64,000 nucleotides of DNA from the NCBI GenBank assembly GCA_039555135.1, contig CP114179.1, forward strand, positions 1,302,001 through 1,366,000. Reading direction: 5' to 3'. The stretch comes from Phycisphaeraceae bacterium D3-23. GTDB lineage: Bacteria > Planctomycetota > Phycisphaerae > Phycisphaerales > Phycisphaeraceae. The notes under the pieces were generated by a model. The model did no database searches. It was not told the DNA's origin and saw only the letters and a list, made by a program, of their open reading frames with translations. Shown piece after piece: positions 53,155 through 57,003 of the stretch. The translations under genes were made by a program, and so were the position numbers. Position 1 is the stretch's first letter. The number at the start of each line of letters is the position of its first letter.

Positions 53155-53598
53155 CTACTTCTCGCGTTGCCAGTGCACGCTTGGCGCGTCGCCCCAGAGC
53201 ATTTCGAGGTCGTAGATCGACCGCGTCGCGGGCTCGAAGAGGTGGGCCATAACATCCACAAAGTCGAGCACGACCCAGCGGGTGGTCTGGTCGGTGTCGC
53301 TGCCGTAGCGCTCGCTGCCCAGCGACTCGGCCAGGTCGGTCGCGCGTGCGCCCAGGGCCTTGATCTGCCGGTCGCTCGTGCCCGAGGCGATGACGATGTA
53401 GCTCGTGATCGGACTCACGCCGCGCAGGTCGAAGACGAGGATGTCGGCGCAGTCGAAGTCGTCGAGCATCTGCGCGATCTTGCAGGCGAGGCCCAGCGCC
53501 TTGGCGTCGTCGCTCCCGGGCTTGGGCCGGTCGGCGGGGACGCGCGCGGGGTCGGTCTGCTTGGCCAGTTCGTCGTGTTGTTCAGGGGTATCCGTCAT
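53155..53598 (-). CDS. rsfS: Ribosome silencing factor RsfS
   Basis: RsfS (YbeB/Iojap) binds ribosomal protein L14 and blocks joining of the subunits when nutrients are poor. The 147-residue product has the DUF143 core: DDFDCADILVFDLRGVSPIT, YIVIASGTSDRQIKALG, then VVLDFVDVMAHLFEPATRSI followed by YDLEMLWGDAP, which is the family's closing strand. It has a short, charged N-terminal extension. Start ATG 53598. Upstream is the rpsU terminator region. Confidence 0.95.
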   Translation of the reverse strand: MTDTPEQHDELAKQTDPARVPADRPKPGSDDAKALGLACKIAQMLDDFDCADILVFDLRGVSPITSYIVIASGTSDRQIKALGARATDLAESLGSERYGSDTDQTTRWVVLDFVDVMAHLFEPATRSIYDLEMLWGDAPSVHWQREK

Positions 53599-53691
53599 CG
53601 TGTCAATCGTAGTCAGGTGGACAGCCGGCGGCCGACGGACGCCGGGCGTTGAGTGCGGGGCGTTTTACCGGCTGCCCGGCACCGCAACGAA

Positions 53692-53718
53692 CAAGCCCAC
53701 GGAGGACCCGTGGGCTTG
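53692..53718 (-). terminator. Terminator-like palindrome after rpsU
   Basis: CAAGCCCACGG-AGGAC-CCGTGGGCTTG, a near-perfect inverted repeat. It belongs to the GCCCACGG family and lies 40 bases past the rpsU stop. The T-tract is weak. Confidence 0.55.
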
Positions 53719-53758
53719 CATGAAAATCAATGGGGTCGGCCAAGCCGAGCCGGTCGGG

Positions 53759-53959
53759 TCAGCGCCGCGGGGCACGGGGCGGCATGGTGGCCCGCTTGAC
53801 CATCTTGCGCAGGGCGCGCTGCTTGCGTTCCGAGGGTTTCTCGTAATAAGCGCGCTTCTTGATGTCTTTGGTGAGCCCTTCTTTCTCGCACAGCTTCTTG
53901 AAGCGGCGCATCATCTGCTCGGCGGATTCGCCGTTGCGGGCTTTGATTCGGATGGCCAT
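53759..53959 (-). CDS. rpsU: 30S ribosomal protein S21 (bS21)
   Basis: bS21 sits near the 3' end of 16S rRNA and helps the initiation complex. The 66-residue product is strongly basic, starts MAIRIKARNGESAEQMMRRFKK and carries the conserved FKKLCEKEGLTKDIKKRAYYEKPSERK-type block (seen in shorter pieces as RAYYEKPSERKQRA). It ends in a basic tail (MPPRAPRR). Start ATG 53959. It is a single leftward gene between rsfS and murB. Confidence 0.96.
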   Translation of the reverse strand: MAIRIKARNGESAEQMMRRFKKLCEKEGLTKDIKKRAYYEKPSERKQRALRKMVKRATMPPRAPRR

Positions 53960-54086
53960 ACGCGTGGGTCTTTCGTCAAGGGGTCAGGGGTTGCGTGGGA
54001 CCGCGTATTGTGCCAAAAGCTGGGCGGGGTCGCAAGTCGAGGGGCGATCGATGAACTCGTTAGCCGTCGCCGGTACGGTGATGCGT

Positions 54087-54110
54087 ACCCACGGATGGAA
54101 TCCGTGGGCT
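54087..54110 (-). repeat. CGAAGCCCAC palindrome between rpsU and murB
   Basis: ACCCACGGAT-GGA-ATCCGTGGGCT, inverted repeat, with the CGAAG end on the minus strand. It sits just after the murB stop codon and may act as its terminator. Confidence 0.7.
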
Positions 54111-54136
54111 TCGTGGGCAGCGATCCCACCCCTAAC

Positions 54137-55078
54137 TCAAGGCCACACCACGACTTCCCGCTCCAACGCGACGCCGAATCGCTCCTGCACGACCTCCTGG
54201 ACGTGCCGCATCAGCTTATCGACGTCGTCGGCGCTGGCGTCGCGCTTGTCGGCCACGATGAAGTTGGCATGGACCTCGCTCACGCTCGCGGTGCCCAGGG
54301 AAAAGCCCTTGAGCCCGGCCTGGTCGATCAGCATGCCTGCGGGCCGGCCGGCCGCGTCGGGGTCGTCCTCGGGCGGATTCTTGAAGCAGCACCCGGCCGA
54401 CTTGTCGCTGAAGGGCTGGCTGTTGGTCTTGTAGAAGTAGATCTCTTTGACGCGTTTGAGCAGTTCCTTGGCGTCGTCGGGCTGGAGCTCGAACTCTGCT
54501 TCGAGGATGAGCGGCGCGTCGATGTTGCAACTTCGATAGGTGAAGTCGAGGTCGTCGCGGTCGCGGTAGTAGACCTGGCCGGTGGCGGACATGACCTGGA
54601 CCCGGCTGATGACTTGGCCCACGTCGCCGTAGGTGCCCCCGGCGTTCATGCGGACCGCGCCGCCGATGGACGCGGGGATGCCGGCGACCTGGGCGAGGCC
54701 GTCGAGCCCGAGCTTTGCGGTCTCGATCACGAGGCGGTGCAGGTCGTAGCCCGCGCCGGCGCGGACGGTGTTGCCCTGGGCCTGCATCGTATTCCAGTGC
54801 GGGTCGTCGAGGCGGATGACGACGCCGGGCACGACACCCTGGCGGACCAGCAGGTTTGCGCCGCTGCCGAGCACGCGCATCGGGACGCCCTGCTCGTGGC
54901 ATCGCCGGACCAGCTCGCCGAGCTGCGCCGGCGACGCGGGGTGGGCGAGGACCTGCGCCCGGCCGCCGACGTTGTACCAGGTGAGCGGGCCCAGCGGCGC
55001 ATCGTCTTCGCAGCGGATATTCAGGTCGTCGAGCAGCGCGTGCAGCTTCGGGGTGTCGGGCGTCGTCTCGTGGGGCAT
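54137..55078 (-). CDS. murB: UDP-N-acetylmuramate dehydrogenase
   Basis: MurB reduces UDP-N-acetylenolpyruvoylglucosamine to UDP-N-acetylmuramate with FAD and NADPH, for peptidoglycan synthesis. The 313-residue protein has an FAD domain with LTWYNVGGRAQVLAHP, MRVLGSGANLLVR, and GLAQVAGIPASIGGAVRMNA. The catalytic Tyr-x-Arg pocket is in FTYRSCNI; the C-terminal SAGCCFKNP and GLKGFSLGTASVSEVHANF match the type IIb family. Length is right. A TAGAAT box lies 6 bases before ATG 55078. Planctomycetes have wall genes in many lineages; this one supports a peptidoglycan wall. Confidence 0.96.
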   Translation of the reverse strand: MPHETTPDTPKLHALLDDLNIRCEDDAPLGPLTWYNVGGRAQVLAHPASPAQLGELVRRCHEQGVPMRVLGSGANLLVRQGVVPGVVIRLDDPHWNTMQAQGNTVRAGAGYDLHRLVIETAKLGLDGLAQVAGIPASIGGAVRMNAGGTYGDVGQVISRVQVMSATGQVYYRDRDDLDFTYRSCNIDAPLILEAEFELQPDDAKELLKRVKEIYFYKTNSQPFSDKSAGCCFKNPPEDDPDAAGRPAGMLIDQAGLKGFSLGTASVSEVHANFIVADKRDASADDVDKLMRHVQEVVQERFGVALEREVVVWP

Positions 55079-55084
55079 AAGCGG

Positions 55085-55090
55085 ATTCTA
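55085..55090 (-). promoter_or_regulatory. -10 box TAGAAT, 6 nt before ATG 55078
   Basis: TAGAAT then CCGCTT then ATG, the same layout as at the larC2-like gene. Confidence 0.5.
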
Positions 55091-55145
55091 GCGGCGTCGG
55101 GTACCCCTGACATCGGCCCGGGCTCGGCGGCGCGACTACTAAAAA

Positions 55146-55169
55146 ACCCACGGAAAAAATCCGTGGGCT
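55146..55169 (-). terminator. Terminator after HMA selenoprotein gene
   Basis: Stem AGCCCACGGA/TCCGTGGGTT with loop of T, then a run of six T on the minus strand (plus-strand A run 55141-55146). Also a member of the CGAAGCCCAC family. It lies 26 bases past the gene. Confidence 0.85.
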
Positions 55170-55194
55170 TCGTAGGTTTCCATATCCGCTCGGC

Positions 55195-55605
55195 TTACTG
55201 GCCGTCTTCTTCCGGTGCGGCTTCGGGGGCGGCTTCGCCGGCGTGCATCGCGAACTCGGTGACCTCGAAGCGGTCGTCGGCTTCGATCGCCTCGGTGACC
55301 TGCGCCTCGGTGAGCTCGGCACCTTCGGCGCACTTCACGTTCACTTCGCCGGTCTCCCGGTCGATCAGCACGTCTTCGACACCATCAAGCGCCACGAGGG
55401 ATCCACGGACCGTGGATTCGCAGCCGCCTCAGGTCATGCCCGTGACTTTCAGGTTGGCTTTGGTGACGCTGACATCTTCGACCCAGGCGGTCGAGGTGTC
55501 GCCTTCGGCATCGGTGCCGGCGGTCGGCGCTTCGGTCTCGGCACAGCCGACCACCAAGCCGGCGCACAGCAGCCCGGCACTCAGGAACATGGGGAACGTT
55601 TTCAT
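55195..55605 (-). CDS. HMA-domain lipoprotein, predicted selenoprotein (GMT-U-GGC)
   Basis: A 136-residue lipoprotein with a heavy-metal-associated (HMA/MerP/copper chaperone-like) domain. ATG 55605 starts a signal with lipobox VVGC (Cys21). The HMA domain starts KANLKVTGMT and then has UGA (55429-55431) exactly where the first Cys of GMTCxxC should be; GGCESTVRGSLVALDGVEDV and ETGEVNVKC follow in the same frame, ending with EEDGQ at 55195. The fold is intact on both sides, the second Cys (62) is kept, and a hairpin with a GGUC tip follows the UGA. I read the UGA as selenocysteine (residue 59). An error or pseudogene is the alternative. It would bind a soft metal or catalyse a redox step on the outer face of the cell membrane; that is inferred. 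Confidence 0.8.
55401..55417 (-). promoter_or_regulatory. Bacterial SECIS-like hairpin
   Basis: AUCCACG-GUC-CGUGGAU, a perfect 7-bp stem with a three-base loop, begins 11 bases after the UGA. The tip GGUC starts 19 bases after the UGA; in Escherichia coli fdhF the tip GGUC starts 18 bases after its UGA. The position and the G-U tip fit SelB recruitment. Confidence 0.7.
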
Positions 55606-55761
55606 AAAGGACCTCGTGGGGTGAGAGAAAATGAGTGCGGTATCAAACGGTAGAACCAAGACTCTGTTGTCGGCGTTCTCTGGCCGACCCGTTCATTTTA
55701 GGCGTTAGGTGGCCCGAGGATCTGGGAAGAACAGCGGGCGAGTCCCAAAACAGGCAAAGAA

Positions 55762-57003
55762 TCATGATCCATCGTCGCCAGAAACGGCCTTATCGATCCA
55801 ACCGCCGCCCAGAACGATTTGTTCCCGGCCGTCCATAATCGCTTCGTAGCAGACCACGGCCTGGCCGGGGGTGACGGCCTGGAGGGGCTGGTCGAAGCGG
55901 ACGTCGAGGGTGTCTCGGCCCTCCTCATCGACGCCCAACCGGCACTGCGCGAGGACGGGCTCGGAGTTGTAACGGGCCTTGGCCAGGCAGGCGCGCCAGC
56001 CGGCGTGGGGCGGAGCGAGCCAGTTGACCTCGCGGGCCGAGCAGCCGGTGGACTGGAGTTCCTCTTTGCCGCCGACGGTGACGGTGTTGGTCGCCGGATC
56101 TTTGTCGACGACGTAGAGCGGCGCGGCCGCGGCGATGCCGAGCCCACGGCGCTGGCCCAGCGTAAAGTGCTGGTGGCCGGCGTGCTCGCCCAACACGTTG
56201 CCGTCGGTGTCGACGATGTCGCCGGCGTCGAACCCGCCGGGCGTGCGTCGCTCGACGAGTTTGGCGTAGTCGTTGTCGGGGACGAAGCAGATCTCCTGGC
56301 TGTCGGGCTTGTTGAAGACGGGCAGGTTGTAGCCTTCGGCGATCTGGCGTGTCTCGGCCTTTTGCAGGTGGCCGATGGGCAGCAGGGTGTACTCGAGCTG
56401 CTGGCGCGGCGTGCCGAAGAGGACGTAGGACTGGTCTTTGTTGTGGTCGACGCCGCGGGCGAGTAACGCCCGGCCGTGGCCACGGCCGGGCTTTAGGATC
56501 TGCGCGTAGTGGCCCGAGGCGACGAAGTCGGCGTCGATGGACTTGGCGTAGTCGTGGAGCTTGCCGAACTTCAGCCAGTCGTTGCAGCGCACGCACGGGT
56601 TGGGGGTCCGGCCCGCGTTGTACTCGTCGACGAAGTAGTCCATGATCCGCCCGAAGTCCTTGCGGAAGTTCACGACGTAGAACGGGATGTCGAGGATCGC
56701 GGCGACGAGTCGGCCGTCGGCGGCGTCGTTGACCGAGCAGCAGCCCTGCTTGTTTTTTTTGGGTGGCTTCGTCTGCTCATCTTCGCCCAGGATCGGCAGG
56801 GCGCAGTCCTTGCCCTTGTGCGAGCGGTGGAGGTTGTCGTAGCCATCGGCGATCTCGTCGGGGTTGTCGCTGCCCAGGCGCATGAAGCAGCCGACGACCT
56901 CGTAGCCGTCCTCCTTGAGGAGGGCGGCCGCGGCGGACGAATCCACCCCGCCGGACATGGCGAGGACGACTTTTTTCCCGTTGCCGGGCTTGGCCAGGGG
57001 CAT
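55762..57003 (-). CDS. mnmA: tRNA-specific 2-thiouridylase MnmA
   Basis: MnmA thiolates U34 of tRNAs for Lys, Glu and Gln. The 413-residue product has the PP-loop AMSGGVDSSAAAALL, catalytic Cys in NPCVRCNDWLKFGKL, the second Cys in DSQEICFVPDNDY, and HQHFTLGQRRGLGI near the middle. It is longer than the 368-residue Escherichia coli form because of an extra loop (about 73-92, with GEDEQTKPPKKNKQGCCS) and a charged C-terminus. Start ATG 57003, with TACAAT 7 bases upstream. It is divergent from the secreted-protein gene at 57088. Confidence 0.95.
   Translation of the reverse strand: MPLAKPGNGKKVVLAMSGGVDSSAAAALLKEDGYEVVGCFMRLGSDNPDEIADGYDNLHRSHKGKDCALPILGEDEQTKPPKKNKQGCCSVNDAADGRLVAAILDIPFYVVNFRKDFGRIMDYFVDEYNAGRTPNPCVRCNDWLKFGKLHDYAKSIDADFVASGHYAQILKPGRGHGRALLARGVDHNKDQSYVLFGTPRQQLEYTLLPIGHLQKAETRQIAEGYNLPVFNKPDSQEICFVPDNDYAKLVERRTPGGFDAGDIVDTDGNVLGEHAGHQHFTLGQRRGLGIAAAAPLYVVDKDPATNTVTVGGKEELQSTGCSAREVNWLAPPHAGWRACLAKARYNSEPVLAQCRLGVDEEGRDTLDVRFDQPLQAVTPGQAVVCYEAIMDGREQIVLGGGWIDKAVSGDDGS

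Follow-up and report, generated by a model that had tools for sequence, protein, structure and literature searches.

A gene that looks broken by an in-frame TGA is very probably a selenoprotein gene; it lies in the window analysed here, a stretch of 64,000 nucleotides from contig CP114179.1 of Phycisphaeraceae bacterium D3-23. We consider it highly likely that the gene encodes a selenocysteine (Sec)-containing lipoprotein with a heavy-metal-associated (HMA) domain, whose UGA would be decoded with the help of SelB and an mRNA hairpin and which would bind soft metals in the envelope. Computation showed the reading frame with its HMA domain, a host genome equipped with sel machinery, conservation of the TGA and its hairpin, and a Sec/Cys exchange that tracks SelB. 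The original prediction of a probable selenoprotein is thus supported by the sel genes, by a Sec/Cys pair that follows SelB and by the recurrence of the TGA together with a covarying hairpin.

In the proposed mechanism, SelB and Sec-tRNA(UCA) would read the UGA at 55431-55429 as selenocysteine, aided by the hairpin at 55417-55401, and the product would be one protein of 136 aa, presumably exported and lipid-anchored in the envelope. In its HMA domain, Sec59 and Cys62 (U-x-x-C) would together hold a soft metal ion, much as in MerP or CopZ except that one ligand is a selenolate, and the metal might be captured or passed on in the envelope.

Reading Frame and Genetic Neighbourhood

The features of the window that bear on this gene are the following.

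55195..55605 (-): full selenoprotein frame, 136 aa (sequence, HMA domain match, ortholog keeping the TGA)
55429..55431 (-): in-frame TGA, probable selenocysteine, residue 59 (Cys at the syntenic site where selB is not above cut-off, two genomes)
55282..55452 (-): HMA domain (PF00403) with the TGA inside it (Pfam match, AlphaFold2 model, Foldseek matches)
55543..55605 (-): putative lipoprotein-type signal peptide ending in the lipobox-like VVG-C, Cys21 (sequence, by eye and pattern only)
55401..55417 (-): SECIS-type hairpin AUCCACG-GUC-CGUGGAU (fold, covariation, conserved register)
55143..55171 (-): terminator-like hairpin with U-runs, just past the distal TAA (fold -22.8 kcal/mol, z -3.97)
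55762..57003 (-): mnmA, upstream neighbour, position conserved, ordinary TGA stop (MnmA above NCBIfam cut-off)
54137..55078 (-): murB, downstream neighbour, position conserved, ordinary TGA stop (MurB above NCBIfam cut-off)

Sequence and translation confirmed the original prediction of one frame with one interruption: on the minus strand it runs from the ATG at 55605 to the TAA at 55197-55195, and the TGA at 55431-55429 is its sole internal stop. This TGA is residue 59 and takes, as had also been predicted, the first Cys (ligand) position in the HMA metal motif, giving GMT-U-GGC. Reading through it yields a protein of 136 aa that matches the Pfam HMA model PF00403 at residues 52-108, that is, across the TGA (E 9.5e-11, 42.4 bits against a gathering threshold of 24.8), with homology continuous on both sides of the UGA and a metal loop that reads UxxC where CxxC is usual. 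The same protein fell below the cut-off of every NCBIfam model.

A lipobox-like N-terminus was recognised by eye and with a simple pattern in the window protein, in its ortholog L019 and in the Cys-containing proteins of the congeners G016 and G017, and on this basis the window protein may be anchored at the surface. The same kind of crude pattern matched in 22 of 57 Sec sites, among them the window with VVGC. An antisense open frame of 739 aa (window 53405-55624, +) spans this gene, murB and others; high GC very likely accounts for it, but it could mislead a gene caller.

Selenocysteine Machinery of the Host

The original prediction had proposed searching the genome for selA, selB, selC and selD, and all four were found. 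In the 4.62-Mb host genome (G000), selA, selB, selD and the tRNA-Sec gene lie in one cluster (L017:5226-13623, corresponding to G000:C1:3621225-3629622), in which selD, a transporter, selB, selA and tRNA-Sec were identified. Scores were 361.5 bits for SelB (cut-off 242.25), 522.5 for SelA (cut-off 267.9) and 65.3 for the tRNA, with anticodon TCA (gathering threshold 47). SelD matched TIGR00476 with 367 bits and has an in-frame TGA of its own, at CGG-U-AGKL, so the genome appears to encode a second selenoprotein, one of the classic kind. In addition, the binding protein of the ABC transporter in the cluster scored above the cut-off of TIGR04553, the model of a putative selenate transporter (264.5 against 250 bits).

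Exchange of Sec and Cys within the Genus

Matches to the window protein were found in 26 of the 51 genomes of the family, with TGA at the site in only two, the host and G019. The G019 ortholog is 54% identical, keeps the TGA and has the same mnmA-gene-murB order, in a genome with selB above cut-off and a tRNA-Sec gene. In contrast to this, no selB above cut-off was found in the congeners G016 (89% complete) and G017 (100%), and there the homologues aligned at this position have Cys: directly 3' of mnmA, both genomes encode lipobox-like Cys HMA proteins in which GMDCTGC comes first, with two HMA domains in G016 and three in G017, where murB is the next gene. In a further genome, G018 (70% complete), the contig stops within mnmA. 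Four genomes of the genus can be judged, and in these the state of the site, Sec or Cys, tracks SelB.

The part of the gene located 3' of the TGA was also compared between the window and G019. Along these 62 codons dN was 0.33 and dS 0.65, whereas in the other two frames dN exceeded dS, and the codons after the TGA are under purifying selection.

The syntenic genes of the congeners without selB above cut-off (L194:2526-3296 and L195:1331-2302), with their two or three Cys-HMA domains, look as if the extra domains made up for Sec. One more HMA protein lies close by in G016 (L194:1700-2044). Three other candidates were dropped: in G045 the TGA comes only after the domain and resembles an ordinary stop, and the weak matches of G008 and G043 have Cys at the site and stops elsewhere.

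These data bear on the possibility that the UGA is a true stop, with an N-terminal lipopeptide of 58 aa as main product, or that it is read through by an amino acid other than Sec (e.g., Trp or Cys), the hairpin only regulating termination. Some truncated product is indeed likely, as recoding in known bacterial systems is partial, with 30-40% reported in vivo in the available text of PMC4513850. Even so, we find this explanation very unlikely, because the TGA replaces a metal-binding Cys in a genome with the whole Sec system, the site is Cys in congeners without selB above cut-off, and a terminator-like hairpin sits past the distal TAA, as expected if one transcript covers both halves of the gene (this hairpin, 55143..55171, is absent from the output of a simple terminator scanner). 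A changed genetic code was ruled out, since the adjoining mnmA and murB both end at TGA and UGA is therefore not globally reassigned in this genome.

A Family of Probable Sec-HMA Sites in Several Phyla

The pattern GGN-ATG-ACN-TGA-GGN-GGN-TGY was scanned over 84,980 species genomes. It matched 101 stretches, and each of the 80 loci listed from them was examined, with 85 sites in total. Of these sites, 55, spread over 50 loci, were HMA domains with at least 45 bits against a profile built in this analysis, a cut that is partly circular, as 48 of the same sites went into the profile. Two other rules were discarded: a first one that accepted 48 of 85 sites and missed true ones, and the profile at E < 1e-4, which accepted 77 of 85 and was too lax, the search pattern itself containing the motif. 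Locus L124, perhaps an HMA fragment, was kept in the control set, and at L073 the frame 3' of the TGA is short. In the alignment A1 (33 of 57 sites), the invariant GMTUGGC columns stem from the search pattern and carry no evidential weight. By their record titles, the HMA loci belong to Planctomycetes, Acidobacteria, Poribacteria, Anaerolineales, Armatimonadetes, Latescibacterota, Methylomirabilota and other groups.

SelB above cut-off was detected in 39 of 49 Sec-HMA genomes (L082 left out) against 8 of 30 genomes with chance hits (Fisher p 5e-6), a contrast to which kinship may contribute, as the two sets differ in taxonomy. A second look at selA and tRNA-Sec covered the ten Sec-HMA genomes negative for SelB, the 22 negative controls being left out: selA was above cut-off in five of them, and tRNA-Sec above the gathering threshold in eight, one of these borderline (47.8 bits), in a search that is not fully specific, as it was also positive in 5 of 14 control genomes. 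A borderline tRNA is the sole sel evidence in G068, and no sel gene was found at the thresholds used in the HMA-TGA genome G095.

When TRR was substituted for TGA in the pattern, seven matches were obtained in 392 genomes of the phylum, all of them with TGA and none with TAA, TAG or TGG, compared with two matches for the reversed pattern. By eye, five of the seven are HMA sites (including those of the window and G019), one is redoxin-like and one is apparently a chance match. The redoxin-like protein, from another genome of the phylum (L203), has GMT-TGA-GGC followed by a 7-bp hairpin and is probably another selenoprotein.

A lone TGA that splits an otherwise ordinary HMA gene could also be the product of a nonsense mutation or a sequencing error in a decaying gene of the Cys type, and the fold energy of the window, which lies within that of shuffled sequences, would fit such an origin. 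However, decay or error is scarcely credible here: the same TGA is found in G019 and, among the 80 listed loci, at HMA sites in 50, the other stop codons and TGG are missing among the seven TRR matches, the distal half of the gene is under selection, SelB is associated with the sites, and the hairpin covaries, as described below.

A SECIS-Type Hairpin 3' of the UGA

The hairpin AUCCACG-GUC-CGUGGAU of the original prediction is present 3' of the UGA, where positions 55417-55411 pair with 55407-55401 in a stem of seven pairs closed by the loop GUC (55410-55408). Its distance had been given as 19 nt from the UGA to the start of GGUC, and this was off by one: GGUC begins at the 18th nucleotide, and it is the GUC loop that begins at nucleotide 19. 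Published rules for bacterial SECIS elements, in the available text of PMC13188914, describe a loop of 3-9 nt, a stem of 4-16 bp, G in loop positions 1-2, a spacing of 16-37 nt and an MFE of -7.5 or lower, and when they were applied, the window hairpin fell within all of them (loop 3, stem 7, spacing 18, bare hairpin at -7.6 kcal/mol). Synonymous-codon shuffles have shorter stems (p 0.007). The overall folding energy is ordinary, both against synonymous shuffles (p 0.156) and against dinucleotide shuffles (z -1.51), and the case for selenocysteine is a comparative one, not one of the window fold alone.

Across the family, 56 distinct Sec sites were compared, those of the window and L019 among them. 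A G-loop stem of at least six pairs at the right distance is present in 40, and in only 1 of 56 control stretches taken 60 nt further on. Mean stem length was 5.39 at the Sec sites versus 3.80 in synonymous shuffles. Such stems were found in 5 of 55 Cys HMA sites (Fisher p 7e-12 against the Sec sites), a contrast that may partly reflect kinship, as these control sites all come from the order of the window, whereas the Sec sites span many phyla. At the G016 and G017 loci (under L020 and L022), none of the six Cys sites exceeds five pairs. Taken singly, sites are less telling: stem length reached p 0.05 in 7 of 56 Sec sites (L019 alone, p 0.27), and the MFE signal against synonymous shuffles was weak, with p <=0.05 at 9 of 56 sites.

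The stem register of the window was also imposed on the other deduplicated sites, in a test without selection of sites, and at least five of six positions paired in 15 of 37. Sliding the register by 1-4 positions reached at most 4 sites, and none of 1000 rounds of synonymous shuffling reached 15. Two pairs of the hairpin differ on both sides between the window and L019, U-A in the former being G-C in the latter and A-U being G-C. In the alignment A3, with 18 sites, 94.4% of the cells pair, a percentage biased by the choice of its rows for one hairpin geometry. Its covariation score was 0.792, compared with 0.247 in shuffled alignments (reached by 0 of 500) and at most 0.180 in slid ones, and 27 cells were changed on both sides versus 8.3 after shuffling. 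The number of pairs with two-sided changes, 5 of 6, was equalled by 115 of 500 shuffles. TGA and hairpin recur together in many genomes, and the stem covaries.

Relation to Known Selenoproteins

Selenoproteins with HMA domains have been described before, in MerP, UxxU, MerT/CopZ and ATPase forms, and we class the UxxC lipoprotein-like form as a new variant, a call based on the failure of the window protein to reach any NCBIfam cut-off and on the lack of such an entry in a review table: in the available part of the 119-family table of PMC13188914, no UxxC HMA lipoprotein was found. Neither was a description of one seen among the papers listed from open PMC text.

A similar case is the UxxU metal-binding (seleno)protein NF041115, also a small HMA-type domain that has Sec within its metal motif, which differs in having two Sec residues (UxxU, in the available table of PMC13188914) instead of the one (UxxC) of the window protein (35.1 bits, cut-off 95). 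MerP (TIGR02052; 27.8 bits, cut-off 92.55) is likewise a single HMA domain of the envelope, and a Sec form of it appears in the table of a 2008 GOS survey with two sequences and, in the available text, no motif given (PMC2398784); the window protein, however, is lipobox-like, and its gene is flanked by mnmA and murB instead of belonging to a mer operon. The MerT/CopZ fusion-like heavy metal transport selenoprotein NF045683 shares, by its model name, Sec and a CopZ-like HMA domain, and differs, by the same name, in its fused MerT part (16.4 bits, cut-off 375). A mercuric transport (MerT-type) selenoprotein is also entered in the available table of the 2026 review (PMC13188914), as is the cation-transporting ATPase E1-E2, which has the UxxC motif of the window protein but is a P-type ATPase and not a lone HMA domain. 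One such protein may be encoded at L116 (also L199), P-type ATPase-like by eye, whose first HMA motif contains the TGA while its second has Cys. The best NCBIfam match of the window protein was to the CopZ copper chaperones (NF033795, E 1.7e-12; 47.3 bits, cut-off 91), which are cytosolic and have Cys ligands.

Structure, Metal Context and Tandem Domains

An AlphaFold2 model of the domain, with Cys replacing Sec, had a pLDDT of 94.5 and the element order of an HMA fold, strand-helix-strand-strand-helix-strand. Its top Foldseek match was CopZ (6ff2), the nearest solved folds including CopZ and MerP, and the domain profile matched solved chains of copper ATPase, MerP and CopZ.

Neighbours were listed for 17 loci, and ten proteins from 8 of them, chosen by eye, were tested. 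Metal genes were found at most two listed ORFs away in five of the eight. L070 and L065 have MerA above cut-off. At L094 one protein passes the cut-off of an iron-sulfur metallochaperone model and another is a MerR-like regulator below cut-off. That metallochaperone model is also passed at L091, by a protein that is MerTP-like as well (below cut-off), and L061 has an SO_0444-like transporter, below cut-off. The tested proteins of L104, L050 and L055 and a second one of L070 gave no metal gene match. In the window no neighbour is a metal gene, and mnmA and murB say nothing on metals.

From these data we infer a metal or redox role for the window protein, most likely that of an envelope binder of soft metal (Hg/Cu-type) of the MerP/CopZ kind, with a selenolate-thiolate site. 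The protein could instead be a genuine selenoprotein that acts as a thiol-selenol oxidoreductase and binds no metal, as most uncharacterized selenoproteins are likely redox proteins and UxxC is named as a redox motif in the available text of PMC13188914. We regard this as rather unlikely, as the fold is HMA and not thioredoxin-like, metal genes are near five of the eight relatives tested (chosen by eye from 17), and poribacterial relatives repeat the domain in an array-like manner. Metal-binding arrays repeat their domain.

To our knowledge, few selenoproteins are thought to use selenium as a metal holder outside enzyme active sites. Such a role has been suggested for the SaoB, SaoC and UXX-star proteins (PMC13188914, available text). 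The Sec-HMA form recurs in Planctomycetota, Acidobacteriota, Poribacteria and other groups, and this suggests that many such genes may be split by standard stop-codon rules. As Sec and Cys forms occur at one locus in one genus, they offer a direct test of what selenium contributes to Hg or Cu binding. It is conceivable, with chances slightly below even, that these proteins form a multi-phylum and largely uncatalogued group of envelope selenoproteins in which Sec binds soft metals as a ligand instead of catalysing redox reactions, from single Sec-HMA lipoproteins to poribacterial triple Sec-HMA traps that would hold metals by several selenolates.

No paper pairing "Poribacteria" with "selenoprotein" was found in open PMC text. 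In this group, each of three loci has a single ORF in which three Sec-HMA domains are strung together with one Cys-HMA domain.

L108:4984-5442: poribacterial tandem ORF
L121:4744-5202: poribacterial tandem ORF
L111 from 4298: poribacterial tandem ORF

All three Sec sites of L108, and likewise those of L121, have a G-loop stem of 6 bp.
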